This document shows positions 111 through 39,695 of a stretch of DNA of 64,000 nt, piece by piece (positions within the stretch are counted from its first letter, which is position 1; each line of letters begins with the position of its first letter). This DNA is from Paracoccaceae bacterium (lineage in GTDB: Bacteria > Pseudomonadota > Alphaproteobacteria > Rhodobacterales > Rhodobacteraceae): positions 1 to 64,000 of the forward strand of contig JASJAR010000009.1 in assembly GCA_030066905.1 (NCBI GenBank). The letters are read 5' to 3'. Position numbers and translations under genes: made by a program. A model generated the notes under the pieces. That model worked only from the letters and a program-made list of their open reading frames with translations. It ran no database searches and had not been told where the DNA came from.

Positions 111-1775
111 ATGAGTACCGAATGTAAAACCCAACCCGATGTGAAAGAGGCGGTGATCTATTGCCGCGTCTCTTCGAAACGGCAGGTCAAAGAGGGCCAC
201 GGCCTCGACAGCCAAGAAACCCGCTGCCGCGAACATGCAAAGCGCCTTGGTTACACCGTTCTTGAGACCTTCCCAGACAAAGCGGTGTCAGGCGGCAAGC
301 TGCACCGTCCGTCATTCAATCGCTTGCTCGCCTATGTCGAAGCACAGGAACATCCCGTTGCGGTCATCATCGACGATATCAGCCGCTTCTCGCGGGACAT
401 TGAAAGCCACTGGGCGTTGCGCCGGGCACTCAAAGCGGTGGGCGGCAAGCTGGAAAGCCCCTCGGTCCAGTTTGGGGAGGATGCCCATTCGATCCTGATC
501 GAAAACCTCCTCGCTTCGGTCAGCCAACACCAGCGGCAGCACAATGGCGAGCAAACGCGCAACCGGATGGAGGCCCGGGCCAAGAACGGCTTTTGGTGCT
601 TCCCGCCGCCGCCCGGCTTCGCCTTCGAAAAACGCCCCGGCCAAGGGAAAGTAATGGCCCGCCACGAGCCCATGGCGACGATCATCCAAACGGCACTTGA
701 GGGCTTCGCCTGTGGTCGGTTTGAGACGCAAGCCGAGGTGAAGCGCTATCTCGAAAGGGAACCGGACTTTCCAAAGAACAAACGCGGCGAGGTGCGCTAT
801 GAAGAGGTCGTCCGCCTCCTGACGCGCCCCATCTACGCGGGCTACATCGATATTCCCAATTGGGGCATCCGCATGATCAAAGGGCAGCACGAGGGCTTGG
901 TGGGCCTTCAAACCTATCAGCGGGTGCAAGAGCGGATCAGCGAAGGGGCCCGCGTCCCGGCCCGCAAAAACATCGACACCGACTTTCCGCTGCGCGGCTT
1001 CGTGACCTGCGCTGATTGCGAGAAGCCGCTGACGTCCTGCTGGTCGAAAAGCAAGACTGGCAAGAAGCACCCGTACTACATGTGCTTCAACAAGGAGTGC
1101 GAGAGCTACCGCAAATCCATCCGCCGCGATGTCCTTGAGGGGCAGTTTGAAGATGTCTTGAAGTCCATCACGCCCGCGCCAAAACTCACCGAACTGGCGC
1201 GCGCGATGTTCAAAAAGGCGTGGGACCTACAGCTCGGCAAAGCCAAGAAGGTCCAAGACAGCCTGCGGCGCGAATTGGCACGATTGGAAACGCAAATCGA
1301 CGAGAAGCTTGACCAAATCGTCGAATGCTCATCGCTCACGGTACAGCGGGCCTTTGAGCGCAAGGTCGAAAAGCTCGAACGCGAAAAGCTTCTGATCGAG
1401 GAAAAGCTGGCCCAAAAGCCCGGTCCCAAACGCAGCTTCGAGCAAATGTTCGAACTCGCGATGCGCTTTCTCGCAAGCCCTTGGAATCTCTGGACCTCAC
1501 CCCGCATCGAAGACAAGCGAACCGTCCTCAAACTGGCGTTTTCCGAGCGCCTCGCCTACAGCCGGAAAACAGGGTTTCGAACCCCAAAAACCACCATGCC
1601 GTTCAATGTGTTAGGAGGAAACCACATGCAAATGTGTGAAGTGGCGGAGGAGGTGGGATTCGAACCCACGGTACGCTTTCACGCACGCCGGTTTTCAAGA
1701 CTTATGCCACCGTCCCAGCAGAAGCCAGCAGAAACCAGCACAACCCTTAAAAACCCTTACGAATCAGTGGCTTGA
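111..1775 (+). CDS. Large serine recombinase (site-specific integrase/resolvase family)
   Basis: Site-specific recombinase that would cut and rejoin DNA through a serine nucleophile. The N-terminal resolvase domain (about residues 12-160) has the YCRVSS motif with the likely catalytic serine at residue 21, and the conserved IDDISRFSRD stretch. A 'recombinase' domain follows, then a zinc ribbon with paired cysteines (CADC, about residue 300) and a charged coiled coil, the usual order of large serine integrases. The last 50 or so codons are not normal protein: the frame runs through the 3' half of a tRNA-Ser gene (the VGFEPT segment is its T-arm) and ends on a stop supplied by the neighbouring island. 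The native C-terminus is therefore unclear. The rest of its own element must lie left of the window. Family call is firm; activity unknown. Confidence 0.9.
   Translation: MSTECKTQPDVKEAVIYCRVSSKRQVKEGHGLDSQETRCREHAKRLGYTVLETFPDKAVSGGKLHRPSFNRLLAYVEAQEHPVAVIIDDISRFSRDIESHWALRRALKAVGGKLESPSVQFGEDAHSILIENLLASVSQHQRQHNGEQTRNRMEARAKNGFWCFPPPPGFAFEKRPGQGKVMARHEPMATIIQTALEGFACGRFETQAEVKRYLEREPDFPKNKRGEVRYEEVVRLLTRPIYAGYIDIPNWGIRMIKGQHEGLVGLQTYQRVQERISEGARVPARKNIDTDFPLRGFVTCADCEKPLTSCWSKSKTGKKHPYYMCFNKECESYRKSIRRDVLEGQFEDVLKSITPAPKLTELARAMFKKAWDLQLGKAKKVQDSLRRELARLETQIDEKLDQIVECSSLTVQRAFERKVEKLEREKLLIEEKLAQKPGPKRSFEQMFELAMRFLASPWNLWTSPRIEDKRTVLKLAFSERLAYSRKTGFRTPKTTMPFNVLGGNHMQMCEVAEEVGFEPTVRFHARRFSRLMPPSQQKPAETSTTLKNPYESVA
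1642..1701 (-). pseudogene. 3' half of host tRNA-Ser(UGA), split by island insertion
   Basis: On the minus strand this reads from the anticodon loop (CTTGAAA) through the long variable arm, the T-arm (GTGGG/CCCAC around TTCGAAT) and the 3' acceptor strand CTCCTCC, ending G-CCA. It stops abruptly at the anticodon loop, where unrelated island sequence begins. The missing 5' half, with matching acceptor strand GGAGGAG, lies at 10256-10296. Joining the two rebuilds a complete tRNA-Ser. This half has no promoter of its own in the tRNA direction. Confidence 0.93.
1691..1701. other. attL core
   Basis: GTTTTCAAGAC, identical to the right-end copy at 10256-10266. On its left the sequence continues as the tRNA-Ser 3' half; on its right it turns into island DNA. 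In tRNA terms the core covers the anticodon loop (UGA) and part of the anticodon stem, a common crossover site for tyrosine integrases. Confidence 0.9.
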
Positions 1776-1820
1776 ACGAAGTAGAGGCCTGTCGTAACCT
1801 GCCCTAACCCGTAGCTGCCT

Positions 1821-1840
1821 GCTACAAATACGCTACAAGT
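1821..1840 (+). promoter_or_regulatory. Left integrase arm-site repeat
   Basis: Two GCTACAA-type units in tandem (GCTACAAATAC then GCTACAAGT), 18 bp upstream of the integrase start. A 20-bp near copy with one base different lies near the right end at 10036-10055, and a related inverted pair is at about 10097-10116. Paired repeats near both ends of an integrase element are the expected form of arm-type binding sites. Overlap with the int promoter would let the integrase repress itself; that is inference. Confidence 0.7.
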
Positions 1841-1857
1841 GAGAGGACGGGAACGAC

Positions 1858-3153
1858 ATGGCGAAGATTACACAGACCTTCGTGAGGGAGGTGAAAGCAC
1901 CCTCTGAAAGCTACGAACTGCATTGGGATGGCGGGTACGACCGAGCCGTCAAGGGATACGGATTGAGGGTGTCAGCCCCGTCCAAGCAATACCCGACTGG
2001 CAAGCGCGTCTATGTCGCTCACGGACGGGTTCGAGGGCGGCAGGTCAACCTCACCCTCGGTCCCATCGGAGAGATGACCGAAGCGGAGGCACGCGACAAG
2101 GCGCGGCGCGTGCTTCAACGGATGCGCGAGGGGATCGACCCCCGCGACGAGCGCAAACAGGATGAGGCGATGAAGGTGACGCTTCGTCAGGTGGCCGACA
2201 GCTACATGGGCAGGGTCGGCAAGCTGAAGGAGAGCAGCGCGGCGCAGATCGAGCGGCATGTGACCACAACCCTCGCCCACTGGGAGCACAAGCCTATCCT
2301 GTCCATCACCGAGGATGGGTGCCGCCAGCTTTACCGCAAGCTTATGACGAAGGGGTTGCGCGGCGACCGGAAGCAGGGGTCGCCGGGGCAGGCGAACCAG
2401 TCGCTTTCCATCCTCAAGGCATTGCTGAACTATGCAAGCCGCCAGTATCGCCGTGCCGACGGTAGCCCAATCATCGCCAGCAATCCGGTTGACGCACTGC
2501 GGGACGATTGGGTGGAGTTGAAGCCGCGCACCGGCCGCATCCCTGACAACCGTGTCGGCGCGGTGTGGTCAGCGCTAAAAGAGTGGCGTGCCGAGGCATA
2601 TACCCGCGACAGCCTTGCCGGGATTGACCTTGTCATGTTCCTCCTGCTGACCGGGTGCCGCCTGAACGAAGCTGCAAGCCTGCGCTGGGAACAGGTCAAC
2701 ATCGAAGACGACCCTGCCGCGTGCTGGTGGCACCTGCCCGACCCGAAAAACCGCAACCCCTTCTGGTTCCCCTGCTCCACGCAACTGGTGGACCTACTCA
2801 AGACCCGTGAGCGCTTTGAGGGTTCGCCCTGGGTGTTCACCACATGGAGCAAGTCAGGTCACATCGTCAGTCCGCGCGAACTGTTGAAGAAGGTGAGCAA
2901 GGTGGCGGGGACCAAGGTGACGAACCACGACCTGCGCCGCACCACCATCAACATCGGCGTCGGCCAGTGCGGCATGGACTTTTACAAAATCGAACTGTTG
3001 ACCGGGCACCTGCCGAAAACCGTCACCGCGCGCCACTACCTTGAGACCGAACGACTTGCTTACCTCTACCCCGAGGCCCAGCGCATCGCAGATTGGATTG
3101 AGGCTGAGGCAGCGAAAGCGAGCGGCGCAAACGTGGTGGCGATGCGTGCGTAG
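1858..3153 (+). CDS. Tyrosine integrase of the tRNA-Ser island
   Basis: Catalyses integration and excision of the island at the tRNA-Ser anticodon loop. The N-terminus (about 1-95) resembles the arm-DNA-binding domain common in proteobacterial island integrases (DUF4102-like). A SAM-like core-binding domain follows (about 105-225), then the catalytic domain. Catalytic residues are visible: Arg268 (TGCRLNEA), His357 and Arg360 (HDLRR), His384 (TGHLPKT) and the nucleophile Tyr394 (ARHYLE). At 431 aa it is full length for the family. It lies directly inside attL and is transcribed into the island, the normal position for an integrase. The ATG at 1858 follows a GAGAGGACGGGAA purine-rich stretch. 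Confidence 0.95.
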   Translation: MAKITQTFVREVKAPSESYELHWDGGYDRAVKGYGLRVSAPSKQYPTGKRVYVAHGRVRGRQVNLTLGPIGEMTEAEARDKARRVLQRMREGIDPRDERKQDEAMKVTLRQVADSYMGRVGKLKESSAAQIERHVTTTLAHWEHKPILSITEDGCRQLYRKLMTKGLRGDRKQGSPGQANQSLSILKALLNYASRQYRRADGSPIIASNPVDALRDDWVELKPRTGRIPDNRVGAVWSALKEWRAEAYTRDSLAGIDLVMFLLLTGCRLNEAASLRWEQVNIEDDPAACWWHLPDPKNRNPFWFPCSTQLVDLLKTRERFEGSPWVFTTWSKSGHIVSPRELLKKVSKVAGTKVTNHDLRRTTINIGVGQCGMDFYKIELLTGHLPKTVTARHYLETERLAYLYPEAQRIADWIEAEAAKASGANVVAMRA

Positions 3154-3218
3154 CGATGCTAATGCCGCCACGGCACGGCGTTATTGCCTGGCAGTAGTTC
3201 CAGCGAAGAGATGCAATT

Positions 3219-4292
3219 GTGGAGTTTTACTTTACTGAACCCCAAACCGAAATGGAGAAGCTATTCGGCGGCTTCTTCTGCATCAACGCAATTGGGAAAA
3301 TTGAGGCTGGCGACGACGCCAAGTTTCGCGAGTTTCTAATCAGAACGACTCCGCCGCCACGCTTGACCGTATATATCGACTCGATAGGTGGAGACGTTGA
3401 AGCAGCAATTGGCATCGGACGCCTAATTCGCGACCATTGGTTCTCAACATCAATCGGTCCATACACTTTGGACCACGAGCAAGAATCGTTCGCTATCCTT
3501 CCTCGGAAACATGCTGTGGGCACCTGCGCCAGCGCCGCCACACTCGTCTACCTCGGCGGACGACTCCGCTATTTCCCAAAAGACTCCGTCTTTGGTGTCC
3601 ACCAATTCTCTTTCAAAGACCCTTCTCCAAACGATGTAGGTCGCTCACAAGCGCTATCGGCGAGAATAGCCAGCTACGTTCACGACATGGGGATCTCGGC
3701 TGGCTTCCTTGAGCTGTCGTCAGCTACCGCAAGCACCGAAATTGATAAGGTTGGCGAGGAACAGCTTCGACAGCTTGGGGTTATCACCGACGGGCAAACG
3801 GAAGCGGAATGGACTGTCCAAGCGCGCAACCATATCATGTATGTTCGTGGTGAGCGTGACTCCCTGTTCGGGCACCATAAGGTCATGCTTTGCTACGCAC
3901 GAGGAACAGGTTTCCTGTTCTGGGCTGTGATCGAGTCTCAAGGACGAGAAGACGAACTAACAAGTTTCGGACTCGTTGAAATTGTGGTCAACGGTGAGGA
4001 AATACGCATTGACATTTCGGATCGGTGTGCGCGGCAGATCGAAGGCATCTACACGAACATCCTTTCTCCGATCACCGAAGACGAAGCCCGCGCAATTGCC
4101 TTTTCGGAAAGCTTCGGCGTGCAAGTTCGCTTTTCTTGTGAGGCTGAAATATTCTTAGGTATCGCGGCTATGTCGACGGAAAGTGGCAAGGAACAGTTGC
4201 ACACGTTCTTCAATACACTGTGCAAAGACGACCCTAGTGTAACACCGCCATCGGATGCGGATTCCCCAAATGCGGGCAAGCCCCCACAATAA
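3219..4292 (+). CDS. ClpP/crotonase-fold protein, putative serine peptidase
   Basis: The first 170 or so residues look like a ClpP-type fold: a YIDSIGGDVEAA strand-loop-helix, a possible nucleophilic Ser105 in the GTCASAATLV motif, and a possible catalytic His128 in FGVHQF. A third acid residue cannot be fixed by eye. There is no signal peptide or membrane span, so it is probably cytoplasmic. The C-terminal half (about 180-357) is not recognised. Translation probably starts at GTG 3219, 66 bp after the integrase. Related ClpP-fold proteins accompany integrases in many islands, but their role is not established. It could also be a non-peptidase member of the fold. Confidence 0.7.
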   Translation: MEFYFTEPQTEMEKLFGGFFCINAIGKIEAGDDAKFREFLIRTTPPPRLTVYIDSIGGDVEAAIGIGRLIRDHWFSTSIGPYTLDHEQESFAILPRKHAVGTCASAATLVYLGGRLRYFPKDSVFGVHQFSFKDPSPNDVGRSQALSARIASYVHDMGISAGFLELSSATASTEIDKVGEEQLRQLGVITDGQTEAEWTVQARNHIMYVRGERDSLFGHHKVMLCYARGTGFLFWAVIESQGREDELTSFGLVEIVVNGEEIRIDISDRCARQIEGIYTNILSPITEDEARAIAFSESFGVQVRFSCEAEIFLGIAAMSTESGKEQLHTFFNTLCKDDPSVTPPSDADSPNAGKPPQ

Positions 4293-4506
4293 CTTCGGTG
4301 AAATAAGGGCTTGTGCTGGCGTATACGCCGCTACTATGTTGTACGCCGTGCCGGAGACAGGGCACGCGAAGAATACTGTCTCCGCGAGCCGGTGAAGCAA
4401 GGGTAGCCAGTCCCCCGGGGCATCGGACACTGCCAGATCGGCATTCGGCTTGATCTGGTGCTGGTGACCACAGCGCAAGCCAACACTTGTCGCCGGAGTC
4501 ACCGCA

Positions 4507-4767
4507 ATGGACCACAACGACATGACCTTCGACCAGCTCTGCGAGCTGTTCGGATATGAACCCAAGCGCCGCCCGCTGGACGCGCGCGAAGCCGCTGCCC
4601 TTCTTGGCGTCCACCCCAGCACGCTTGAGGGCTACCGCTTGCGCGGCGGTGGACCCCGCTTCTTCAACCCGCCTCGCACCCGCGTCGTTCGGTATGCCGA
4701 ACGCGACCTGCTCGCGTGGCTGGTGGCGAGCGCACGAAGCAGCACCAGCGAAGCACTGTCAGCCTGA
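4507..4767 (+). CDS. AlpA/excisionase-like helix-turn-helix protein
   Basis: Small DNA-binding protein of 86 aa. Residues about 24-73 form a MerR-like winged helix of the AlpA/HTH_17 type: DAREAAALLGVHPSTLEGYR is the helix-turn-helix, followed by a wing and VRYAERDLLAWL. Such proteins act as recombination directionality factors or as activators of integrase and replication genes on islands. Its position upstream of the DUF3987 gene fits control of the element's replication module. A 213-bp non-coding leader (4293-4506) precedes it, which may carry its promoter. Family confident; exact role inferred. Confidence 0.8.
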   Translation: MDHNDMTFDQLCELFGYEPKRRPLDAREAAALLGVHPSTLEGYRLRGGGPRFFNPPRTRVVRYAERDLLAWLVASARSSTSEALSA

Positions 4768-4941
4768 GGCGGCACTAAACAATGAAACTAGCGTGGGTGC
4801 TTGGCAGGAACTGCCTGTTTCCAGACCGATGCCGCCATGTGCGGCGTCGGTGGACGGGCCACTTCCAGCCTATTCGTAGCCGCGCTCAAGAAAAGCGGCA
4901 GGGCGCATCACCACCCCGCCGCCTGAGAGGATAGTCGGGAC

Positions 4942-5019
4942 ATGACGATGGTAACGAATGCTGCCGATGGCAGCGACGAGGAATTGCACCTCGATACGAT
5001 GGAGGCGCAGCATGGTTAG
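4942..5019 (+). CDS. Possible 25-residue leader ORF overlapping the DUF3987 gene
   Basis: ATG at 4942 opens a 25-codon frame ending in TAG at 5017-5019. The start codon of the next gene (5012) lies inside this frame, in CATGGTTAG, so ribosomes finishing the short frame would sit on the next start. It is acidic (DGSDEE) and matches nothing I recognise. It may be a coupling leader rather than a functional peptide. Confidence 0.35.
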   Translation: MTMVTNAADGSDEELHLDTMEAQHG

Positions 5020-6622
5020 GGTTCCTCCAAATGAGACCTATTCCTTCGCGCCGGAACAGCAACGTGAAGCATTCGATCGACAAGGGTTCTTCTGGGAACA
5101 ACCCAAGTCAGACGATGAGTGGGCTTCGATCACGGAGAACATTGCCCGCGCGCGCGAAGCGCAGGAACGGATGGAGCTTCGCAAACAGACAGGCCAAAGC
5201 GTCGCGTTCGAGTTTCGTAAGCCAAGGGACGTGCTGCGCAAGGTCGCTCCTCCGCCGTTCGACTTTGATGACGTGTCGCCTCCTATTGGGCAATTTGCAA
5301 AAGCCTTTGCCTCGGCGACGGGCTTTGACCAAAGCGGCGTGATTGTTGCGAGCGTTACGGCAGCGGCATCGGTCATTGACGACCGATACAAACTGACGGT
5401 GAGACACGAGTCGAACTGGCACGTTTCAGCCCGCCAGTGGTCATTCCTCTGTGGAGGGCCGAGCGCAGGCAAGTCACCTGCCATCCGTGCCGCGTCCGCC
5501 CACGTCAAACTGATGCACGGTATTCTGCATGAGCGTTGGCGGTCGGCAAACGAGGGCAAGCCCCGACAGGACAAAGACCCTGCTCCTGCCCTCTACACCA
5601 GTGACACGACCGTCCCTGCTCTCTCTGAACGGTTGCAGGGCAACCCGCGAGGGTTGTTGATGCTGACGGAGGAATTTGCATCATGGGTCGGCAGCATCGA
5701 CAGCGGCGACCGAGGCGACGCGGTGAAGAACCGGGGTGACTGGTTGCAGCTACGGGACGGCGGCCCCCATCAGATTGACCGGGTGGAACGTGGTTCGGTG
5801 TTCGTGCCGAACTGGGGCGTCTCGGTGCTTGCCGCCTGCACCCCCGATGGTCTCGCCAAGCAGTTGAAGCATCTGCCCGAGGACGGCCTCATTCAGCGCT
5901 TTGTACCTTGCATCCTCGGTGCCCCCGACTTGGACGCAACGGGGGATGCTTCTGCCGCGATGACCACATGGGGGCAATGGCTCGAATGGGCCTATGGCGC
6001 GACGGCGCAGGGCTTCGACACATTCATCCAGTTCAGTTCCGACGCACGCGCCATGTTCGATGAAGAAGTGCGCGCGCTACGACAGCTCGTGATAGCGACT
6101 GAAGAGTTTGCACCCGCTTATGCGGCTCACCTTGGCAAGCATCCCGGAATGCTTGCTGAAGCAGCGCTGGTCTTCCACGTATTCACCGCGACCGCTGAGG
6201 GCGAACTTGCTCCGCAGGTGGGGGTTGGTGCCGTGGCCTACGCGATCCGCTACATGCGCAAGGTTCGGCGTCACGCATACACTCTCTATTCAAGCATCCT
6301 GAGCACCGCGCCAGCATTCGACCTGGCCCGTTCGTTGGCAAGGTCAATTGTTGCTGCCGAAACCCCTATGACCACAATCGGCAGGGCTGACATGTCGGCA
6401 ATGTGCGCTGAGTTTCGCAAAGCACCTGATATGTTGCGACGGGAGGCGGTGCAGCTATTGGAAGACGCAGACTGGCTGGAACCTACCGCCCGCTCTCCGT
6501 ATGGCGGCTGGCCACGCGAGTATGCGGTGCATCAGTCGGTGTTTTCAATTTTCGCTCGTGAGGGCGAGCAGTGGCGGGCGCGCAGGGCAGCGGTGAAGGA
6601 CGCTATCGGGGAAGCAAGGTGA
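5012..6622 (+). CDS. DUF3987 family ATPase, putative island replication protein
   Basis: Protein of 536 aa with a P-loop, GGPSAGKS at about residues 148-155, in the context WSFLCGGPSAGKSPAIR that is typical of DUF3987 proteins. Further family-like blocks follow: YTSDTTVPAL, LLMLTEEFASWVGS and RDGGPHQIDR, then a helical C-terminal part. Members occur on phages, satellites and plasmids next to primase-type genes and are thought to act in element DNA replication. No separate primase or polymerase gene is visible in the island, so this may be its only replication-type protein. The start at 5012 is chosen because GGAGG lies 7 bp upstream; an earlier in-frame start at 4958 has no such site. Confidence 0.8.
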   Translation: MVRVPPNETYSFAPEQQREAFDRQGFFWEQPKSDDEWASITENIARAREAQERMELRKQTGQSVAFEFRKPRDVLRKVAPPPFDFDDVSPPIGQFAKAFASATGFDQSGVIVASVTAAASVIDDRYKLTVRHESNWHVSARQWSFLCGGPSAGKSPAIRAASAHVKLMHGILHERWRSANEGKPRQDKDPAPALYTSDTTVPALSERLQGNPRGLLMLTEEFASWVGSIDSGDRGDAVKNRGDWLQLRDGGPHQIDRVERGSVFVPNWGVSVLAACTPDGLAKQLKHLPEDGLIQRFVPCILGAPDLDATGDASAAMTTWGQWLEWAYGATAQGFDTFIQFSSDARAMFDEEVRALRQLVIATEEFAPAYAAHLGKHPGMLAEAALVFHVFTATAEGELAPQVGVGAVAYAIRYMRKVRRHAYTLYSSILSTAPAFDLARSLARSIVAAETPMTTIGRADMSAMCAEFRKAPDMLRREAVQLLEDADWLEPTARSPYGGWPREYAVHQSVFSIFAREGEQWRARRAAVKDAIGEAR

Positions 6623-6633
6623 CCGCGTGCAAA

Positions 6634-6675
6634 GTTGGCAAAGAAGGAACTGACCCTAGCACCATCTTTGCCAAC
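6634..6675. promoter_or_regulatory. 11-bp inverted repeat after the DUF3987 gene
   Basis: GTTGGCAAAGA at 6634-6644 pairs exactly with TCTTTGCCAAC at 6665-6675 across a 20-bp loop. A related GGCAAAGAT occurs again at about 6751-6759. There is no T-run after the stem, so a simple terminator is unlikely. A repressor operator or an origin iteron for the island are alternatives. Confidence 0.45.
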
Positions 6676-6796
6676 GTTACCTTGCGCGCGCCATACAGGG
6701 AAGAAAATCACTCTCTTTTTTAGGAGTGTGCGGCGTGTGTAAGGTAAAGATGGCAAAGATCGCGTAATGCCTTTCTCCGCCTTACGTAGTCAATCG

Positions 6797-7228
6797 TCAG
6801 TTCTGCTTGCGTGTCAGTCCGTGAAACTTGCGCCATGCGTATAATTCGCACACCGCGTTGTTCACGTTCCAACCCCTCGCCAACGCCACCTCGCGCAGCG
6901 CCTTGCCCGTGGTCATTGGGTTCGCATCAAGGTAGTCCCACACCACCGCGCACTTGCCGCCAGCCCGAGGCCGCTTGCGGGGGCTGCCCTCGCTGTGCTG
7001 GCGCGTGGGGCGGGTGCCAGGGGCGCTCGCCGTAGTAGTGGCGGTTGCACCGCCTCGCCGCTGGGGTCGCCGCTTGTCGCCGGTGCCGGGGTCTACTTCC
7101 TTCCATCCAAAGCGCACCTCGCCGTCGCTCTTGTGGACGGTGATCTTGATCCGCTCGCGGGGCACGCCCGCAGCTACCCCAGCACGGCGCGCATTCTCAC
7201 GGCGGGTGTATGTGGTCATCGTCGTCAT
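6797..7228 (-). CDS. Hypothetical island protein with basic linker and helical C-terminus
   Basis: 143 aa. The N-terminal part (about 1-45) has a short charged segment and KITVHKSDGEVRFGWKEV, a possible beta hairpin. The centre is Arg/Thr/Pro-rich and low in complexity. The last 50 residues (CAVVWDYLDANPMTTGKALR onward) look like a small winged-helix-type bundle. It is the only island gene on the minus strand and diverges from the gene at 7433, so the 7229-7432 gap should hold two promoters; it could be the island's repressor or a DNA-binding accessory protein. Start chosen at 7228 because GGAGTGAC lies just upstream. No family recognised. Confidence 0.6.
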   Translation of the reverse strand: MTTMTTYTRRENARRAGVAAGVPRERIKITVHKSDGEVRFGWKEVDPGTGDKRRPQRRGGATATTTASAPGTRPTRQHSEGSPRKRPRAGGKCAVVWDYLDANPMTTGKALREVALARGWNVNNAVCELYAWRKFHGLTRKQN

Positions 7229-7432
7229 AGTCGTCACTCCATCAAAAGTTGAACGACCAGTTGCACGACAGGTCTCGGATGAAGCGCAACGAAAAACCGG
7301 ACTGACAAGCGGCATAAGTTTAGTAGACCGATGTGGGTTCGTATCTAAGTGTATGTAATCGTTGTGGAACTATTGGTGAAGCAGGTATCCTTGTCGCACA
7401 TTTCACGCCTTAGCAGGCATCGAGGGACGACA

Positions 7433-8146
7433 ATGAGCATCACAGACGACACTCCGGTGGACACCCGCATCACCCCGGCGCTGCATCCGGGGGTTGTTAG
7501 CAAGATCGACGGTTACGGCGAGGATACGAAAGCCGTGCTCGGTCAAGTCGAGACGGCCTTCAGCACCGCATACGAGGGCATCCGCTCCGTGTGGAACGCG
7601 CGCGAGAAAGTCGAGGCCGACACCTCCAAGACGGCAGATGCTCGCTTGCTCCAGCTGGACGGCTTCGCGCAGAAGAAGTTGGAGCACGCGGCGCGCACTT
7701 TCGACAGCACCAGCGCCACGGTCAAAAAGCAGATCGCATTCCTTGAGGGGGCGCTGGCTGAACCAATTGAGGAAAAGGCATCGGGTAGCGTTGCGGCTGA
7801 GATTCGTTCCCACGCAAAGGCACTGACGACCGACAAGCTGCACAAGTTCGTCAACGACGCGATTGAAGGCGGTGACCACGCTACCGTGGCGGCTGTTCTG
7901 GGCGGTCCCGCATACCTCAGTGGCCTGACACCCGACTTGCAGAAGACCTACCTCAAGCGTTGGAACCAGCAGCAACGCCCCGATCTGGCGAAGCGCCTGC
8001 ACGTCCTGCAACAGGCACAGGCAATGCTGGACAGGGACGCAACCAAAATCTTCAAGGCAATGGAGGATGCCGTGGGCGGCAGCAGCGCAAAGGCGAATGA
8101 GGTTCGCAAAGCGCAGGTGGCGGCTGACAAGGCTACCTCCGCCTGA
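7433..8146 (+). CDS. Hypothetical helical protein of the island
   Basis: 237 aa, strongly helical, rich in Ala, Lys, Glu and Gln, with long stretches resembling coiled coil (about 35-105 and 175-237). There is no signal peptide or membrane segment. Start ATG 7433 follows GAGGGACGACA. It heads a rightward set of short genes (7433-9870) with small gaps or overlaps, so the set is probably one transcript. Small terminase-like or scaffold-like phage proteins can look similar, but nothing diagnostic is present. Confidence 0.65.
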   Translation: MSITDDTPVDTRITPALHPGVVSKIDGYGEDTKAVLGQVETAFSTAYEGIRSVWNAREKVEADTSKTADARLLQLDGFAQKKLEHAARTFDSTSATVKKQIAFLEGALAEPIEEKASGSVAAEIRSHAKALTTDKLHKFVNDAIEGGDHATVAAVLGGPAYLSGLTPDLQKTYLKRWNQQQRPDLAKRLHVLQQAQAMLDRDATKIFKAMEDAVGGSSAKANEVRKAQVAADKATSA

Positions 8147-8178
8147 CCCCTGAACCGAAACTGTTGATGCAGGTGCCT

Positions 8179-8649
8179 ATGACGGACGTAATCAAACCAA
8201 GCTGGATGGAGGGTTTCGTGCCCGACCCTGCCCCGCCCGGTGGTCGCTGGCCCAAAGGTGTCAGCGGCAACCCTGCCGGTCGTCCCAAGGGATCGCTGAG
8301 CAAGAGCGACAAGATCGCCCGCGCTTTGGCAGAGGAAGGTCTGGACGTGGTGCGCGTCGTGCTGGATGCAGCGAAGGCAGGCGACATGGCGGCATGTGGT
8401 CACGTCCTCAATCGGATCGCGCCGAACCTCCGCAGCAAGTCGCAGCCCGTCGAGTTTGACTTTGACCCCAAGGCACCGATGACGGAGCAGATCGAGGCCG
8501 TGCTTGCGGGTGTCGCTGCCGGTCAGGTGCCCCCGGACGTGGGGCAAACGATCATTGCCTCCATCGGCACGCTGAACGAGGCGCGGTTGACCGAGGAACT
8601 GGCTCAAGAGCTGGAAGCGCTGAAGCGCGACAGGGAGGTGCGCCGCTAA
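8179..8649 (+). CDS. DUF5681 domain protein
   Basis: 156 aa. Residues about 17-37 carry the hallmark of DUF5681: GGRWPKGVSGNPAGRPKGS, a short Gly/Pro/Lys-rich segment. The rest is helical. DUF5681 proteins are common beside terminase genes in alphaproteobacterial prophages, and some are thought to relate to DNA packaging; no terminase is present here, which is one reason to suspect a phage satellite. In-frame starts also exist at 8164 (TTG) and 8167 (ATG); 8179 is preferred because GCAGGTG precedes it. Its stop overlaps the next start (TAATG). Confidence 0.75.
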   Translation: MTDVIKPSWMEGFVPDPAPPGGRWPKGVSGNPAGRPKGSLSKSDKIARALAEEGLDVVRVVLDAAKAGDMAACGHVLNRIAPNLRSKSQPVEFDFDPKAPMTEQIEAVLAGVAAGQVPPDVGQTIIASIGTLNEARLTEELAQELEALKRDREVRR

Positions 8650-9002
8650 TGTTCATCGAGACCCAACGCAACCGCGTCTACCTCGACCGACCGCTGCCAA
8701 CCGATACGGTTGTGGCCACATACATCAACTTCGTCGCTGGACGGGGTTACCTGCTCTGCGTCCAGCCAATCGAGCAGCACCAACAAGCCATCGACTGGGC
8801 GCTGAGCATGGCCGACTACATGCAAGGGCCCATCGTGGTCCGCTCCTGCGAGTCTGAGGAATGGCTCCACTATACGCATCTGTATTGCGACATGAGTGAA
8901 CTGGCTTTCGCAAGTGCTGACCCCGAGGTGCGGCGCGAGGCTTTCGAGGTGCTCACATCACTGGCGGACTGGGAGCCCATCAAGCACAGGAGGTTGCAGT
9001 GA
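8649..9002 (+). CDS. Hypothetical island protein
   Basis: 117 aa, no recognised domain. The first half reads as a beta-rich segment (NRVYLDRPLPTDTVVATYIN, GRGYLLCVQP) and the second as helical. Its ATG overlaps the stop of the DUF5681 gene, and its own TGA overlaps the next start (GTGA), so translation of three consecutive genes is coupled. Soluble, no signal peptide. Coding is supported by the overlaps and the uninterrupted frame; function unknown. Confidence 0.6.
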   Translation: MFIETQRNRVYLDRPLPTDTVVATYINFVAGRGYLLCVQPIEQHQQAIDWALSMADYMQGPIVVRSCESEEWLHYTHLYCDMSELAFASADPEVRREAFEVLTSLADWEPIKHRRLQ

Positions 9003-34758: not shown

Positions 34759-35562
34759 GTGAATTATCTCAATGAGTTCGGGCATGTTTGGCCGACATAT
34801 CCGGAGCACGTCAAGCCAACCGGAATCGAGATTGACCGCATTGCGTCTGGAGCCGAGCATCGCCCTCTCATCCTGATCGAGGATGAGGGTCTGCTGGAGC
34901 GCGAATGCCTCGGCCGCGCCCTTCAAGCCTTCAGCCCGGAATTCCGGGTTGTAACCCGGCCGACGCGCGCCGAAGCGCCGGAGGACATCCGGCCGGATGC
35001 GGTGGTGGTCGGCGTCGATTCCGATGGCGGCGACTGCGAGGCCGCCGCGGAATTGCTGCGGTCGCTTCAGAACGGGCTGCCCAATGTGCCGATCGTCGTG
35101 CTGGCCGAAGACGCCGAGGCGATGACCGCCACGGCGGGTCTTTGCGACATCGGGATCAGTGGATGCCTTTCTCATTCCGTCGGCATCGAGGGGCTGACAA
35201 AGGTCCTCTGGCTGGTGCTCCACGGGGGCGCGTGCTTCCCGAGGCGGAGTATCTGCCAACGTCGCGCGGCCACGGTGCAGGAGGGCCAGCCGGCCCCCGA
35301 AAACCAGCGCGCCGACGCCGAAGTCTCGGCGGCCCCGATGGCCGGGCTCGGCCTGACCGAGCGCGAGCGCGACGTCGTGGGCAAGCTGCGGATGGGCAAG
35401 CCCAACAAGATCATCGCCTATGAACTCGGCATCTCGATCTCGACCGTGAAGGTCCATGTCCGCAACATCATGCGAAAGACGGGCGCGACCAACCGGGTCG
35501 AGGCCGCGCTGCTGCCGGGCAAACCGGCTTTCGGGCCGGCAATGGCCCATACCGGTTCCTAG
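34759..35562 (+). CDS. LuxR-family regulator with non-canonical receiver domain (CsgD-like)
   Basis: 267 aa. Residues about 34-160 resemble a receiver fold (RPLILIEDEGLLERECL, VPIVVLAEDAEAM), but the usual phospho-acceptor Asp context is replaced by VVVGVDSDGGD and a clear Thr/Lys pair is missing. The C-terminus (about 195-255) is a LuxR helix-turn-helix: LTERERDVVGKLRMGKPNKI then ISISTVKVHVRN. An unorthodox receiver plus LuxR HTH is the layout of CsgD and VpsT, regulators of matrix genes. Starts at GTG 34759 after GGGGGGAAA. It stands immediately upstream of the Asn-Gly repeat genes and is the likely regulator of that cluster. Confidence 0.85.
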   Translation: MNYLNEFGHVWPTYPEHVKPTGIEIDRIASGAEHRPLILIEDEGLLERECLGRALQAFSPEFRVVTRPTRAEAPEDIRPDAVVVGVDSDGGDCEAAAELLRSLQNGLPNVPIVVLAEDAEAMTATAGLCDIGISGCLSHSVGIEGLTKVLWLVLHGGACFPRRSICQRRAATVQEGQPAPENQRADAEVSAAPMAGLGLTERERDVVGKLRMGKPNKIIAYELGISISTVKVHVRNIMRKTGATNRVEAALLPGKPAFGPAMAHTGS

Positions 35563-35614
35563 GCCGTCCGGCCGCCGGGCAAGTGTTTGTGTGTACGATA
35601 GGAGGGGGAATTCC

Positions 35615-36688
35615 ATGTCATCGGTTCTAACGCGCATCGTTGCGCTCTTCGTGGTACTGCTGCCTGCGTTTTCGGCGCCGGCCGTGGCCGCGACGATCAC
35701 CCATTGGTTTCAGGGCTCGCTCATGGCGGACGGGACCTGGGTGGCCGACGAGAACGGCAATCTCGGCTTCGGCAATGTCGGCCAGGGCAACACGGGCATC
35801 GGCAATGTCGGCAGCGGAAACACCGGCATCATGAATGTCGGGCAGGGCAATGTCGGCCGCCACAATGAGGGGACCGGGAATTACGGCATCGGCAACGGTG
35901 TCAACAGCCCGAGCCCGACGTCAGGCAACTACAATACCGGGATCCTGAACGGCCGGAACAACAGCGGCGACTTCAGCGGCAACGGCAATACCGGCATCAT
36001 GAACGGCAACAACAATGCCGGCGACCACAGCGGCAACGACAATTACGGTTTCGCCAACGGTAATTTCAACGGGATCGGCAGCCACGACCCGACGAGCGGA
36101 AACTTCAACGGCAACCGAAACGCCGGCATCTACAACGGAAACTTCAACGGTCTCAATAACATCGGCCCGAACAGCGGCAATGCCAACGGCAACGACAACG
36201 TCGGCACGTTCAACGGCAACTTCAACGGTCTCGGAAACGAAGGCGCCGACAACGGCAACGCCAACGGCAACTTCAACGATGGCACGTTCAACGGGAACTT
36301 CAACGGGATCGGTAATTTCGGACTGGACAGCGGGAATTTCAACGGAAACGCGAACATCGGCGTGTTCTCGGGCAATTTCAACGGTCTGGGCGAACTGGCC
36401 AGCCCCGCCTCGGCGGGCGCGGCGACGAGTTTTTTCGAACTCAGCCTCGAGATCATCCTCGGCGAGCCGCTGGAGCGCTTCGGCGTGTCGTTCTGGAACG
36501 GGTTGTTCTCGGTCGACGAAAGCGTGCCCAATCATCTGGCCTGGAGCGACCTTCTGACCGGCATGTACCAGCATGTCTACTACTCCGAGCCGCTCGATAC
36601 GACTGTGATCCCGCTGCCGGCGTCGGTTCTGCTGATGCTGGGGGCGATCGCGTCGCTGATCCTGACACGGAGACGGCGGACGGCCTGA
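35615..36688 (+). CDS. Exported Asn-Gly repeat protein with VPLPA-CTERM sorting signal
   Basis: 357 aa. Signal peptide at residues 1-25. Residues about 47-95 are pentapeptide repeats of the form G-N-x-G-x (GNVGQ, GNTGI, GNVGS). From about 105 to 275 the unit lengthens to 18, 22 and then 26 residues, each built on N-x-N-x-G-x-x-N-G-N-x-N-G. A non-repeat region (about 280-325) follows, and the protein ends in IPLPASVLLMLGAIASLIL plus a basic tail, a VPLPA-CTERM signal known in Rhodobacterales and processed by an exosortase/rhombosortase-type enzyme, none of which is in this window. Pentapeptide repeats of this kind fold as beta-solenoids. Probably a cell-surface or matrix protein; function is inferred. 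Confidence 0.85.
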   Translation: MSSVLTRIVALFVVLLPAFSAPAVAATITHWFQGSLMADGTWVADENGNLGFGNVGQGNTGIGNVGSGNTGIMNVGQGNVGRHNEGTGNYGIGNGVNSPSPTSGNYNTGILNGRNNSGDFSGNGNTGIMNGNNNAGDHSGNDNYGFANGNFNGIGSHDPTSGNFNGNRNAGIYNGNFNGLNNIGPNSGNANGNDNVGTFNGNFNGLGNEGADNGNANGNFNDGTFNGNFNGIGNFGLDSGNFNGNANIGVFSGNFNGLGELASPASAGAATSFFELSLEIILGEPLERFGVSFWNGLFSVDESVPNHLAWSDLLTGMYQHVYYSEPLDTTVIPLPASVLLMLGAIASLILTRRRRTA

Positions 36689-36850
36689 GACCGGCGCCGG
36701 CAAACCCCGGGGGGCCATCTTTATACCTCCCGGGGACGCCTCCCAGACTTACACCGAAAGGCCAAATGGACGCTGGGCCGGATTCGGCGCCACGCTGCGA
36801 GGCAAGTCCCAGCGGCAGCCCGGGTTGCCAGTATTCTCAGGAGGTTCACG

Positions 36851-37393
36851 ATGCGCAGCGCAGGTCTATCAATTCCAATTGTTCTGATCGGGGCCGGTCT
36901 GCTGGCCGGACCCGCAGCGGCCGAGATCATGAGCCGTGCCGAACTCGACGCGACCCTCGGCGGTCAGTGCCGTACCTGCGGCAACGGGAACGGCAACGGC
37001 AATGTCGGCTCGGGCAACGGCAGCGGCAACGGGAACGGCAATTCCGGGGCCTGGAACGGCAACGGCAACGGGAACGGCAACTCGGGCGTCGCCAATGGCA
37101 ACGGCAATGGCAACAGCAACGTAGGGGCCGGTTCCGGCAATTCGAACGGCAACTGGAACAGCGGCTCGATGAACGGCAACGCCAACGGCAACGGCGCGCC
37201 GGATGCCAACGGCAATATCGGCTACGGCAATGGCGGAACCGGCAATATCGGTGCCTGGAACGGTCGCGGGAACAGCTCGTCGACCTCGGGCAACAACAAC
37301 ATCGGCGCCTATAACGGCAACAACAACGGCGGCCGGTTCAACGGAAACGGAAACATCGGGTCGTTCAACGGGAATTTCAACGGCAACAACTGA
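36851..37393 (+). CDS. Exported Asn-Gly 13-residue-repeat protein with CxxC
   Basis: 180 aa, start ATG after AGGAGGTTCACG. Signal peptide 1-24 (cleavage near AAAE). The mature N-terminus has a CxxC (QCRTCGNGNGNGNVG) nearly identical to that of the protein at 39264. After it come 13-residue units NGNSGAWNGNGNG, NGNSGVANGNGNG, NSNVGAGSGNSNG and NWNSGSMNGNANG, a degenerate middle, and two more units near the C-terminus. It has no sorting signal. A secreted beta-solenoid or amyloid-like subunit is plausible. It belongs to the same run as the genes at 35615 and 37556. Confidence 0.8.
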   Translation: MRSAGLSIPIVLIGAGLLAGPAAAEIMSRAELDATLGGQCRTCGNGNGNGNVGSGNGSGNGNGNSGAWNGNGNGNGNSGVANGNGNGNSNVGAGSGNSNGNWNSGSMNGNANGNGAPDANGNIGYGNGGTGNIGAWNGRGNSSSTSGNNNIGAYNGNNNGGRFNGNGNIGSFNGNFNGNN

Positions 37394-37555
37394 GCCTGGG
37401 CGGGGCCCCCGGGGGGCGCGAAAGCGGTCGCCGGCGGGCCCCGATGGCGAGGCGGCAGGCGCCGTCTACCACCTTTGGCCAAGTTGGCGGCGGCGCCGAA
37501 AGGCACTCGAATTGGGCAAGCCGCCATGCCCCACGCAAACGATGAGGAGACAGCA

Positions 37556-38170
37556 ATGTACAGCCTGGCAACAATCGCCGTCTCGGCTGCGCTGGCCGCC
37601 GGCCAACCCACCCTTCCGGCTCTGCCGCCCGGTGCCGACGATCTCGATATGCTCGTCCCGATGGACTTTCACGGAGACGTCGAAAAATCGGTGAGGGAGG
37701 CCGTGCGCGACGCCATCAGCACAGCAAACGCCTCCGGCGGAACCAGCGGCCGTGGCAACGGCAACGGTAACGGCAATGTCGGCAACAACAACGGGAACAA
37801 CAATTCCGGGAACAACAACGGCAACAACAATTCCGGCAGCAATAACGGGAACAACAACACGACCGACAACAACGGCAACAACAACCGGAGCGACGGCAAC
37901 GGCAATGGCAGTGCGGCCCAGAAGACCAGCACCGCCGCGGCACCGTCGGCGACCTCCGGGGGCGGCTCGGCCGCGTCGGACCGTGCGGTCCAGCGGGCAA
38001 AGGAGGCCGCGGGCTCTGCGGTTGCGATGTCGGGATCGAGCGCCCATGGGTCGGGCAAGTCGTCCGGCGCCAGGCGCGACGATCGCGCGGTCACCAAGAT
38101 GCAGACCCGTCGCCCCGTGCCATGCGTGCGCCGGAGTTTCCTCGGCATCGTCATCGAGGACTGCAAGTAG
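37556..38170 (+). CDS. Exported Asn-rich repeat protein, 9-residue period
   Basis: 204 aa. N-terminal signal-like segment (MYSLATIAVSAALAAG). Residues about 67-115 are Asn-Gly rich with a 9-residue period (GNNNGNNNS twice, GSNNGNNNT, TDNNGNNNR). The C-terminal half is Ser/Ala/basic, with two cysteines near the end (VPCVRRSFLGIVIEDCK) that could pair. The repeat differs from the 13-residue type of its neighbours, so it may be an accessory or nucleating component. RBS GAGGAGA precedes the ATG. Confidence 0.75.
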   Translation: MYSLATIAVSAALAAGQPTLPALPPGADDLDMLVPMDFHGDVEKSVREAVRDAISTANASGGTSGRGNGNGNGNVGNNNGNNNSGNNNGNNNSGSNNGNNNTTDNNGNNNRSDGNGNGSAAQKTSTAAAPSATSGGGSAASDRAVQRAKEAAGSAVAMSGSSAHGSGKSSGARRDDRAVTKMQTRRPVPCVRRSFLGIVIEDCK

Positions 38171-38634
38171 CGACAGGGCCACGCCTTGCCGGGCATGGAG
38201 GTCGCCCCATTCAACACACCGCCAACATCAAGGTCTTTCTGTCCTCCGACCGCCGGCTTTTCGCCGATTGCCTGTCGCACCATTTTGCGACGGCCGCGCC
38301 GCAATTCGAACTTGTCGCCGACCCCGCCGACGGGGCCGGTTCGCCCTACCCAGTGGTCTGCGTTCGCGATGTCGGGAGGGCGGACCTTGGCGGCAATGCG
38401 CGCGCGCATATCGTCGACGAGCTCCGCCGGACCGCTCCGGCGGCCCGCATCCTCATCGTCTCGAGCCGAAAGAACGCCCAGGACGCGCGGGGCTGGATCG
38501 TCGCCGGCGCCCATGGCTACCTCCCGGCGCATTCGACGCCGGATCTCCTGACGGCGGCCGCCGTGGTGGTCGCAGCGGGGGGCGTTTTTCTGCCCGAGGA
38601 ACTGGCACGCAGCCTGTCCTACCCCGATGCCTGA
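38122..38634 (+). CDS. Orphan receiver-like protein lacking an output domain
   Basis: Up to 170 aa. From about residue 35 (NIKVFLSSDRRLFADCL) it follows a receiver-like alpha/beta pattern, ending RILIVSSRKNAQDARGWIVAGAHGYLPAHSTPDLLTAAAVVVAAGG, similar to the N-terminal domain of LuxR regulators. No helix-turn-helix follows. The phospho-acceptor Asp is not obvious. The start is unsure: ATG 38122 overlaps the previous gene by 49 bp, and no better start is in frame before the domain. Its stop overlaps the C39 gene. It may bind or antagonise the CsgD-like regulator at 34759; that is inference. Confidence 0.65.
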   Translation: MRAPEFPRHRHRGLQVATGPRLAGHGGRPIQHTANIKVFLSSDRRLFADCLSHHFATAAPQFELVADPADGAGSPYPVVCVRDVGRADLGGNARAHIVDELRRTAPAARILIVSSRKNAQDARGWIVAGAHGYLPAHSTPDLLTAAAVVVAAGGVFLPEELARSLSYPDA

Positions 38635-39154
38635 CGCGATGCGCCTGGCGGTCCGTCTGACGCTGGTGGCCGCACTCTGCACGGAGGCCGCCGCAGACGT
38701 ATCGCCGGCGCAGGCCTTCCTCGCCGATCACCCCGTCATCCGCCAGACCGAGGACGTCACCTGCGGGCCGGCCGCGCTTGCCAACCTTCTCGGCCTCCAG
38801 TTCGGGCTCGCGCTCACCGAGGCCGAGATTGTCGCCGACATGCTGGCGGGGCGGCCCCTCGCAGCGATCCGGCAACGCGGCGGGTTCTCCCTGCTCGAGA
38901 TCGCCGAATTCGCCGAGTCGCGCGGCTATGCGGCAAGGGGCGAACGCGGCCTCGACACCGAGGCGCTCGCGGAGCGGCTGCCGGCGATCGCCCAGGTGGC
39001 CCTCGCCGGCGGGGGCCTGCATTTCGTCGTCGTCGCCGAGCGCGACGGCGCCCGGTTTGCCGTCCTCGATCCGGCCACCGGCGCGCATTGGGTCGCGGCG
39101 ACAGCGTTCGACCGGCACTGGACCGGCGTCGTGCTGACCCTTTCGGGCCCCTGA
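38627..39154 (+). CDS. Exported C39-family cysteine peptidase-like protein
   Basis: 175 aa. Signal peptide 1-23 (LAVRLTLVAALCTEAAA). The mature part is a C39 (bacteriocin-processing type) domain with the full triad: Cys46 in EDVTCGPAALANLL, His132 in GGGLHFVVVAERD, and Asp148 in AVLDPATGAHW. It has no transporter part, so it is a stand-alone periplasmic or secreted form. C39-like peptidases of this kind (FapD) belong to Fap functional amyloid operons in pseudomonads. Here the gene sits among Asn-Gly repeat genes, so it may process or gate export of those proteins. It overlaps the receiver-like gene by eight bases. Confidence 0.83.
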   Translation: MPDAMRLAVRLTLVAALCTEAAADVSPAQAFLADHPVIRQTEDVTCGPAALANLLGLQFGLALTEAEIVADMLAGRPLAAIRQRGGFSLLEIAEFAESRGYAARGERGLDTEALAERLPAIAQVALAGGGLHFVVVAERDGARFAVLDPATGAHWVAATAFDRHWTGVVLTLSGP

Positions 39155-39196
39155 TCGATTTTCGATTTTCGGAAAGAACGTCCCGTCGGGACAAAA

Positions 39197-39229
39197 CTCG
39201 GCCGCCCAGAGGGGGAGAGGGCGGCCGAG
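39197..39229 (-). terminator. Terminator between the convergent C39 and Asn-Gly repeat genes
   Basis: CTCGGCCGCCC at 39197-39207 pairs exactly with GGGCGGCCGAG at 39219-39229. On the minus strand the stem is followed by TTTTG, as for a Rho-independent terminator of the gene at 39264. A second small stem (GTCCC-GTC-GGGAC, 39180-39192) follows. Confidence 0.75.
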
Positions 39230-39263
39230 ACGGAACGGGTTATCGTTCCTGGCAGGGTTCGGA

Positions 39264-39695
39264 TCAGCTGCCGTTGCCGTTGCCGTTGCCGTTCCCGTTT
39301 CCGATTCCGGAGTTGAAGTTGCCGTTCACGTTGCCGTTGTTGCGGCCCCAGTTGGCGTTGCCGTTCCCGTTGCCGTTCAGCCCGCCCCAGTTGCCGTTGC
39401 CGTTGCGGTTGCCGTTGCGGATACCGGTGTTGACGTTGCCGTTCTCGTTCCCGTTGGAGATGCCTCGGTTGCCGTTGCCGTTGCGGTTGCCGTTCAACGC
39501 ACCCCAGTTGCCGTTGCCGTTGTCGTTGCCGTTGAAGGCACCAACGTTGTCGTTGCCGTTGTAATTGCCGTTGCCGGCGCCAACGTTGCCATTGCCGTTG
39601 CCATTGCCGCAGCTGAAGCACTGGGCGCTCGCGGGCATGGCAGCCGCGAGGGAGGCCAGGGTCGCCGCAGCCAAAAGAATGGGTCTGATTTTCAT
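39264..39695 (-). CDS. Exported Asn-Gly 13-residue-repeat protein with CxxC (second paralogue)
   Basis: 143 aa. Signal peptide 1-24 (ASLAAAMPASA). The mature protein begins QCFSCGNGNGNGNVG, matching the start of the mature protein from 36851. It then has seven consecutive 13-residue units such as NGNWGALNGNRNG, NGNRGISNGNENG and NVNTGIRNGNRNG, the most regular array in the window. No membrane or sorting segment at the C-terminus. Its opposite orientation gives it its own promoter in the 39696-39950 gap, shared with no other start. Probably the cleanest form of the structural subunit of the locus. Confidence 0.82.
   Translation of the reverse strand: MKIRPILLAAATLASLAAAMPASAQCFSCGNGNGNGNVGAGNGNYNGNDNVGAFNGNDNGNGNWGALNGNRNGNGNRGISNGNENGNVNTGIRNGNRNGNGNWGGLNGNGNGNANWGRNNGNVNGNFNSGIGNGNGNGNGNGS

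Follow-up and report, generated by a model that had tools for sequence, protein, structure and literature searches.

A rare locus of co-encoded asparagine/glycine repeat proteins in a Paracoccaceae bacterium, possibly specifying an extracellular matrix or fibre

The locus at positions 34759-39695 of a 64-kb window (the whole stretch of DNA that was analysed, lying on contig C28 of the 3.69-Mb genome of a Paracoccaceae bacterium) encodes four predicted exported Asn/Gly repeat proteins, here termed NG proteins, with a LuxR-type regulator, a receiver-like protein and a C39 peptidase. From its sequence the locus was read, with moderate confidence, as a regulated system making an extracellular protein matrix or fibre from Asn/Gly repeats, fibre formation being the part that we infer. 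This reading draws on motif statistics, homologous clusters, the order of two of the NG protein types, dN/dS ratios, curlin genes in one relative (genome G676), adjacent MacAB genes and predicted strands in one NG type. Predicted repeat proteins of three types are found together, beside regulators with a LuxR-type helix-turn-helix (HTH), and appear constrained in relatives. An earlier sequence-only reading of the window had proposed an undescribed surface-fibre system at this locus. Its interpretation as a whole was partly supported.

That reading had placed the gene set within 5 kb, and every gene was found where it had been placed. Genes P0001 to P0006 follow one another on the plus strand, and P0007 comes after them on the minus strand.

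P0001, 34759..35562, plus strand: LuxR/NarL-type regulator with a GTG start, a degenerate receiver-like N-terminus and a GerE HTH (PF00196, 63.1 bits)
P0002, 35615..36688, plus strand: NG-B-like exported NG-repeat protein with 4 strict 13-mers, a pentapeptide-like N-terminal stretch and a VPLPA-CTERM-like tail
P0003, 36851..37393, plus strand: exported NG-B repeat protein with 5 strict 13-mers followed by a GGTGNIGAxNGxxNxSSTSGNNNIGA block
P0004, 37556..38170, plus strand: exported NG-C-like repeat protein with a 9-residue period and a basic C-terminus; an alternative start at 37526 is possible
P0005, 38122..38634, plus strand: orphan protein resembling a degenerate receiver, with an uncertain start (17.1 bits against PF00072, under the cut-off)
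P0006, 38627..39154, plus strand: exported C39 cysteine peptidase (PF03412, 59.7 bits), a distant FapD/FilB relative, overlapping the end of P0005 by 8 bases
P0007, 39264..39695, minus strand: exported NG-A repeat protein with eight tandem 13-residue repeats

Its strand places P0007 outside any single operon with the other genes. Each of the four NG proteins opens with a hydrophobic signal for export, the one of P0004 being short, and export of these proteins and of P0006 is putative, as the N-terminal signals were read by eye. The locus is flanked by a 2-hydroxyacid dehydrogenase and a Crp/FNR-type regulator, neither with an evident link to it. A recent foreign origin was considered and composition gave no sign of one, the G+C content being 0.651 for the locus and 0.653 for the window.

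Three of the exported proteins had been said to share the 13-residue motif NxNxGxxNGNxNG, and this held. Strict copies numbered four in P0002, five in P0003 and eight in P0007, far above the maximum of one in 2000 composition-preserving shuffles per protein with the signal regions left out (shuffle means 0.0005-0.023). The fourth Asn-rich exported protein, P0004, was present as described and had no strict copy. With the final G of the motif dropped it had three (shuffle mean 0.0005). Its self-match was 0.76 at lag 9, and because of this 9-residue period the odd fourth protein of the sequence-only reading was taken as the third type of the set. A 13-residue period was found by self-match in P0007 and in two relatives (the NG-A proteins of loci L016 and L097).

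Three types of NG protein recur: NG-A (13-mer), NG-B (composite) and NG-C (9-mer). On reading the sequences, the 13-mer resolves into the 9-mer NGNxNxGxx and the 4-mer NGNx, and all three types are built from these pieces. NG-B, as seen in P0003, mixes 13-mers with 9-mers, and its block is visible in alignments A3 and A5. No homology search gave a hit for P0004, and its assignment to NG-C rests on the period. In the NG-C proteins of L033 (two), L063, L065, L067 and L097 lags 9 and 18 were within the top three. The number of strict units in NG-A varied from 5 to 8 across 12 proteins from Methylobacterium and L033.

P0002 was matched by NG-B profiles at E 2.2e-13 and 3.1e-15. P0003 aligned by BLASTP to P0009 of Methylobacterium (E 1e-13) and with 10 NG-B proteins in alignment A5. 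P0007 was 61% identical in a MAFFT alignment to P0008, the Methylobacterium NG-A protein first found; HMMER matched the two at E 5.4e-23, although BLASTP gave no alignment. P0003 and P0007 share the head QCxxCGNGNGNGNVG directly before the repeats, which suggests that these two predicted proteins act together. The CxxC heads lie at 36965-37010 and 39585-39625 of the window and read QCRTCG in P0003 and QCFSCG in P0007; P0008 has no such head.

None of the NG proteins tested gave a match over cut-off in Pfam, NCBIfam or PHROGs (PHROGs without P0002). The best library match of P0004, TafF at E 0.34, was insignificant. A search of solved-structure sequences with P0003 gave nothing up to E 1. A search of titles and abstracts, mostly of open-access literature and without preprints, gave nothing on the NG family among the matches listed. 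An NGN hit on contig C17 was rejected as an NG gene, being a short frame of non-coding composition that overlaps flagellar-type genes.

NG-related proteins with a LuxR-HTH regulator next to them were found in Methylobacterium (the genus that includes Methylobacterium sp. J-067), in two genera of family f70 (g364 and g591) and in genus g614 of family f174. They were present in 9/99 Methylobacterium genomes and in 4/149 genomes of f70, namely G363, G676 and G753 of the one genus g364, and G768. Phylum-wide, 3/359 genomes were found (the window genome, G964 of f174 and G676). Class-wide, the P0008 query found 2/385 (the window genome and G363) and the NG-B profile 1/385 (the window genome). The profile missed G363, so the searches are not exhaustive. 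They also rely on programs biased against low complexity. A tblastn search of plasmids with NG proteins and a scan of viral contigs gave nothing, a weak negative as the BLAST low-complexity filter probably hides such proteins; P0010 gave no match against plasmids. The NG system is rare and patchy.

Sixteen other stretches were compared with the window: 11 loci from nine Methylobacterium genomes (L016 and L062-L071), L033 of G768, L031 of G676, L021 and L032 of the other two g364 genomes (G363 and G753) and L097 of G964. The Methylobacterium loci are not independent. Counted as lineages, the loci come down to four (the window, Methylobacterium, G768 and g364), or to five with G964 if f174 is a family other than that of Methylobacterium. 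NG types in these relatives were assigned by reading, on gene calls made by a simple script. In all 14 scorable loci (the 11 of Methylobacterium, L033, L031 and L097) NG-A and NG-B share a strand, with NG-A immediately upstream; L021 and L032 reach a contig edge just after NG-A. The NG-A of L031 is an NGS variant with no strict and five relaxed 13-mers. The window is rearranged, with NG-A on the opposite strand and the order not kept. A LuxR-type HTH regulator was within the stretch in 16 of the 17 loci, window included, the exception being L064. It was recognised by Pfam in the window, L031, L062 and L097, and elsewhere by BLASTP to those or to the FixJ-like regulator of L016.

Genomes G838 and G842 of Methylobacterium have two NG loci each (L064, L065, L067 and L068). 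By eye L064 and L068 are near transposase-like genes, which suggests that the NG loci of these genomes are duplicated or mobile.

When eight NG pairs, taken from Methylobacterium and g364, were compared codon by codon, they gave dN/dS (nonsynonymous to synonymous substitution) ratios of 0.03-0.32, and on this ground the repeats are taken to be translated and constrained in those genera. The NG genes of the window have no close relative found and lie outside this set. In L031 the NG genes adjoin genes for two curlin-repeat proteins. These scored 18.5 and 18.1 bits against Pfam Curlin_rpt (cut-off 20.7) and 21.9 bits, above the cut-off, in the genome search. CurlinB has four copies of the pattern QxGxxN and curlinA three, against shuffle means of 0.28 and 0.21 with a maximum of 3 for each. 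In G363 the same curlin, 84% identical, stands at the start of another contig (21.4 bits). The predicted curlin genes of the G676 cluster are a link to fibre biology that is independent of the window. No Curlin_rpt match was found in G268, G753, G768 or the Methylobacterium genome G675.

Structure prediction, which the sequence-only reading had proposed, gave a moderate model for NG-A and none of use for NG-B. An AlphaFold2 model of P0007, made with one homologue, had predicted local distance difference test (pLDDT) values of 60 on average and 70-74 for residues 51-100. Its strands (37-46, 50-58, 62-68, 75-81 and 88-94) are spaced by about 13 residues. The model is compatible with a stacked beta repeat and is not proof of one. 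The NG-B model, at pLDDT 39, was unusable. Foldseek with the NG-A model found nothing significant (best E 6.4). Re-alignment of five chains to this model with VIA-align 2 gave Z 7.4-8.6 at 9.6-10.0 Å root mean square deviation, and no fold was assigned from it. We take these five chains to be left-handed beta-helices.

The same proteins could be secreted without polymerising, as a soluble hydrated hydrogel, a cryo- or desiccation-protectant or an ice- or mineral-binding repeat protein. This was judged unlikely. The extreme Asn/Gly content of the repeats and the want of a confident fold in NG-B would suit it. So would the nacre NG-repeat domains that, in the available part of PMC7677314, are hypothesised to act on crystal growth, and the plant surfaces named as Methylobacterium habitat in the text seen of PMC5017803. 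The curlin-repeat genes within the G676 cluster speak against it, as does the retention of three repeat types side by side under LuxR-type control, a pattern like that of multi-subunit assemblies.

A further partner of the NG genes, in Methylobacterium and G768, is a MacAB-type pump. An HlyD/MacA adaptor, an ATP-binding cassette (ABC) ATPase and a MacB_PCD+FtsX permease are encoded in one run in L033 and the Methylobacterium loci, identified by Pfam on L033, L016 and L066 as examples and by BLASTP in the rest. The adaptor was present in 10 of the 11 Methylobacterium loci, and the eleventh (L064) had a MacB piece at the contig end. In eight of the nine Methylobacterium NG genomes the NG locus holds the sole MacB match at E<=1e-30. 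The exception is G838, where no match passed this threshold and both NG loci run into contig ends. The Methylobacterium loci keep MacAB by the NG genes though their outer flanks differ in part; several share a flank gene, NMT1-like in L066. The arrangement is like that of MacAB-TolC, for which the portion of PMC8277102 consulted reports transport of a Sec-exported polypeptide from the E. coli periplasm. It is unlike MacAB-TolC in that ATPase and permease are separate genes in the relatives, that the window locus has none of the three, and that the G768 permease scored 232.8 bits against a cut-off of 966 for the NCBIfam MacB equivalog. Among MacA relatives on plasmids (24 records) no NG protein was found in three neighbourhoods read, one of them gap-searched for open reading frames (ORFs). 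A MacA/ABC/MacB set on a plasmid of Sinorhizobium fredii comes immediately after the gene for a small exported peptide rich in Cys (L075:6266-6673), perhaps another peptide substrate of such a pump.

Both MacAB-type pumps and C39 peptidases are known in peptide export, P0006 matches NHLP transporter peptidases (40.1 bits), and the polypeptide in the part of PMC8277102 consulted is a Sec-exported peptide that leaves E. coli via MacAB. It is on such grounds that the NG proteins might be precursors or carriers of exported peptides (bacteriocin-like, or like ribosomally synthesised and post-translationally modified peptides), processed and exported by C39 and MacAB. We regard this as very unlikely. 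By eye there was no evident double-glycine leader or core peptide, nor any recognisable modification enzyme or immunity gene. The repeat arrays occupy nearly the entire mature NG-A with a variable number of units, and C39 and MacAB were never together in the 17 stretches.

Several observations weigh against a matrix or fibre system as set out above. Conservation of the gene set in relatives had been named as a test; within the window's own family NG-A was found in 1/295 genomes, the window genome itself, and on this half of the test the outcome was adverse. The other stretches were found via NG-A or NG-B searches, so one of these is present by selection, which does not apply to the partners. 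LuxR proximity alone is modest evidence, as such regulators are frequent and their base rate was not measured. No C39 gene was found in the 16 other NG stretches, an absence that is weaker for L021, L032, L064, L065 and L067, which are cut by contig ends. Because of this absence, and the MacA-type adaptor found instead in Methylobacterium, C39 was rejected as a core gene. Of the genes said to act together, the NG types and the LuxR-HTH regulator recur as a unit in other lineages, and C39 does not. L031, L097 and the window locus lack MacA, ABC and MacB genes, and at E<=1e-30 MacB was not matched anywhere in the three g364 genomes. The window genome has a single MacB match, on a different contig and among unrelated genes. 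Curlin_rpt gave no match in this genome, the window locus showed no recognisable outer-membrane channel, and the AlphaFold2 models are weak with no significant fold match.

The MacAB genes of the window genome, on contig C23, have a P-type ATPase/Hsp20-like run on one side and a sensor-kinase-like gene on the other, with no NG genes, and were not counted.

With a pump lacking at L031 and L097, and only C39 and a MacB on another contig as candidates in the window genome, the NG proteins could instead form an envelope coat or spacer, in the periplasm or at the outer membrane, the adjoining MacAB and C39 serving other substrates. We consider this quite unlikely. The tail of P0002 would fit it, as would the porin that adjoins the regulator in all three g364 loci. 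What counts against it is that MacAB is kept by the NG genes in Methylobacterium loci with partly differing flanks, and again in G768. A VPLPA-CTERM signal had been claimed for P0002; the tail matched the model at E 2.1e-5, but its 24.4 bits fell just below the curated cut-off of 25.35.

A regulated matrix or fibre system recalls curli. Small exported repeat proteins lie by a LuxR-HTH regulator with a receiver-like N-terminus, and the G676 cluster holds curlin-repeat and NG proteins together. In contrast to curli, the NG repeats are of 9 and 13 residues, and no PF07012 match was found in P0002, P0003, P0004 or P0007. The regulator had been called CsgD-like, which held for its GerE HTH; against the NCBIfam CsgD model (NF007505) P0001 scored 40 bits with a cut-off of 250, and the match covered the HTH only. 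No CsgG-like gene was recognised among the locus ORFs, and no genome search was aimed at CsgG, CsgE or CsgF. A csgG gene and curli cluster are reported from some plant-derived Methylobacterium strains in the part of PMC5017803 seen.

P0001 was 31-33% identical over 216-228 amino acids to NG-adjacent regulators in three g364 genomes. An orphan receiver also adjoins the LuxR gene in all three g364 loci (L021, L031 and L032). The orphan receiver-like protein claimed for the window, P0005, was present but degenerate, scoring 17.1 bits against Response_reg (PF00072, cut-off 30.2) and 21-27 bits against NarL/NarP-type receiver models. Its best matches were LuxR N-termini. As an orthologue of the g364 receivers it was rejected (29% identity over 52 amino acids to P0013, no hit at E 1e-6), so that only the arrangement is common to both. 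The g364 porin, a Porin_2 by Pfam run on L031, lies beside the regulator at L021:1916-3292, L031:11979-13355 and L032:1287-2720.

The exported C39 peptidase was borne out. P0006 scored 59.7 bits against Peptidase_C39 (PF03412, cut-off 22), which places it in the family. By eye its Cys46, His132 and Asp148 align to the C, H and DP of solved C39 domains, in an alignment of three chains of which one lacks the Cys. The domain assignment is solid, and P0006 is a predicted C39 peptidase with the catalytic residues in place. Its likening to FapD stood as far as the homologous domain; at 62.1 bits against the FapD model (cut-off 330) and 54.8 against FilB (cut-off 475) it is not a FapD equivalent.

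Like the Fap (FapA-F) system and the FilB-FilC putative pilus, the locus has a stand-alone exported C39 peptidase by exported Asn/Gly repeat proteins. The NG repeats share the GNxGN...G...N flavour of the Fap repeat, GN-X-G-N-X2-AG-X2-NQQ-X-N in the passages available of PMC5557850. The same passages describe FapD as a C39 protease of the periplasm, with a target that is unclear and an activity on which FapC secretion depends. Unlike Fap, P0002, P0003, P0004 and P0007 have no NQQ by reading, and among the seven proteins P0001-P0007 there was no FapF match up to E 1. In outline the predicted NG system resembles curli and Fap, and by the tests made it is a member of neither.

C39 matches were found in three of the 295 genomes of the window's family: its own, G268 and G226 (inside a 742-residue open frame). 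The best other match, in G268, adjoins a FapF-like barrel (54.6 of 700 bits), and the G268 locus is more Fap-like than that of the window. A further C39 match in G268, at L012, equals in score and identity the copy at L022:6175-8544, which adjoins a FapF/FilC-like barrel and, by eye, a transposase-like gene. The Fap/Fil-like cassette of G268 may be duplicated. C39 relatives on plasmids (585 records) were all below 60% identity, many of those listed being annotated as ABC transporters, and were uninformative.

Part of P0002 and of NG-B reads NxGxGNxG, presumably as in mycobacterial PPE-MPTR/Pentapeptide_2 proteins. Unlike these, P0002, P0003, P0009 and two more NG-B proteins matched neither a Pfam pentapeptide family nor a PPE domain up to E 5. 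The NG-repeat domains of nacre matrix proteins (pearlin/N16) are similar in that they place short repeats of Asn and Gly in an extracellular matrix that is insoluble, according to the part of PMC7677314 at hand. They differ in belonging to animal proteins, in which the NG stretch is about 10-20 residues long and cysteines are conserved, and no homology is implied.

For a matrix or fibre the following scheme is proposed. A LuxR-type regulator, modulated by its receiver-like partner, would switch the NG set on, and the NG proteins would cross the inner membrane by Sec. In Methylobacterium and G768 they would leave the periplasm via the MacAB-type pump. In the window organism a C39-assisted step through a putative outer-membrane channel would take its place, and this is the largest gap in the scheme. 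Outside the cell the NG proteins may stack by Asn/Gly beta-turn ladders into fibres or a gel, and P0002 may tie the material to the envelope by its tail. More tentatively, and short of an even chance, these may be an undescribed class of bacterial extracellular structural polymer in which three co-encoded Asn/Gly repeat proteins assemble on the surface, with exchangeable secretion (MacAB or periplasmic C39) and curlin co-assembly in one genus. Such a polymer would be categorically new if non-amyloid or secreted by MacAB. Few Gram-negative protein matrix systems are known to the level of subunit, exporter and regulator. A conserved locus of regular 9- and 13-residue repeats, with an exporter adjacent in Methylobacterium, would offer a new case in which to study outer-membrane crossing by repeat proteins, and the system may help to explain matrix formation on plant surfaces. 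Proteins with no family assignment in the libraries searched gain a testable role.

An extra exported protein with a short NG stretch and a conserved C-terminal domain (APGLAAAGIESCLGS...CNDP) was found near six Methylobacterium NG loci.

L016:10319-10957, extra exported protein
L062:3033-3629, extra exported protein
L066:16676-17347, extra exported protein
L069:14657-15370, extra exported protein
L070:13425-14048, extra exported protein
L071:16487-17146, extra exported protein

Two of these were put to PHROGs and matched phrog_20531, a phage family with no known function. In the window itself, positions 111-9000 hold recombinase-like and phage-like ORFs (for example 111-1775 and 8164-8649), by eye mostly lower in third-position G+C (GC3) than the rest, and are probably a mobile element.

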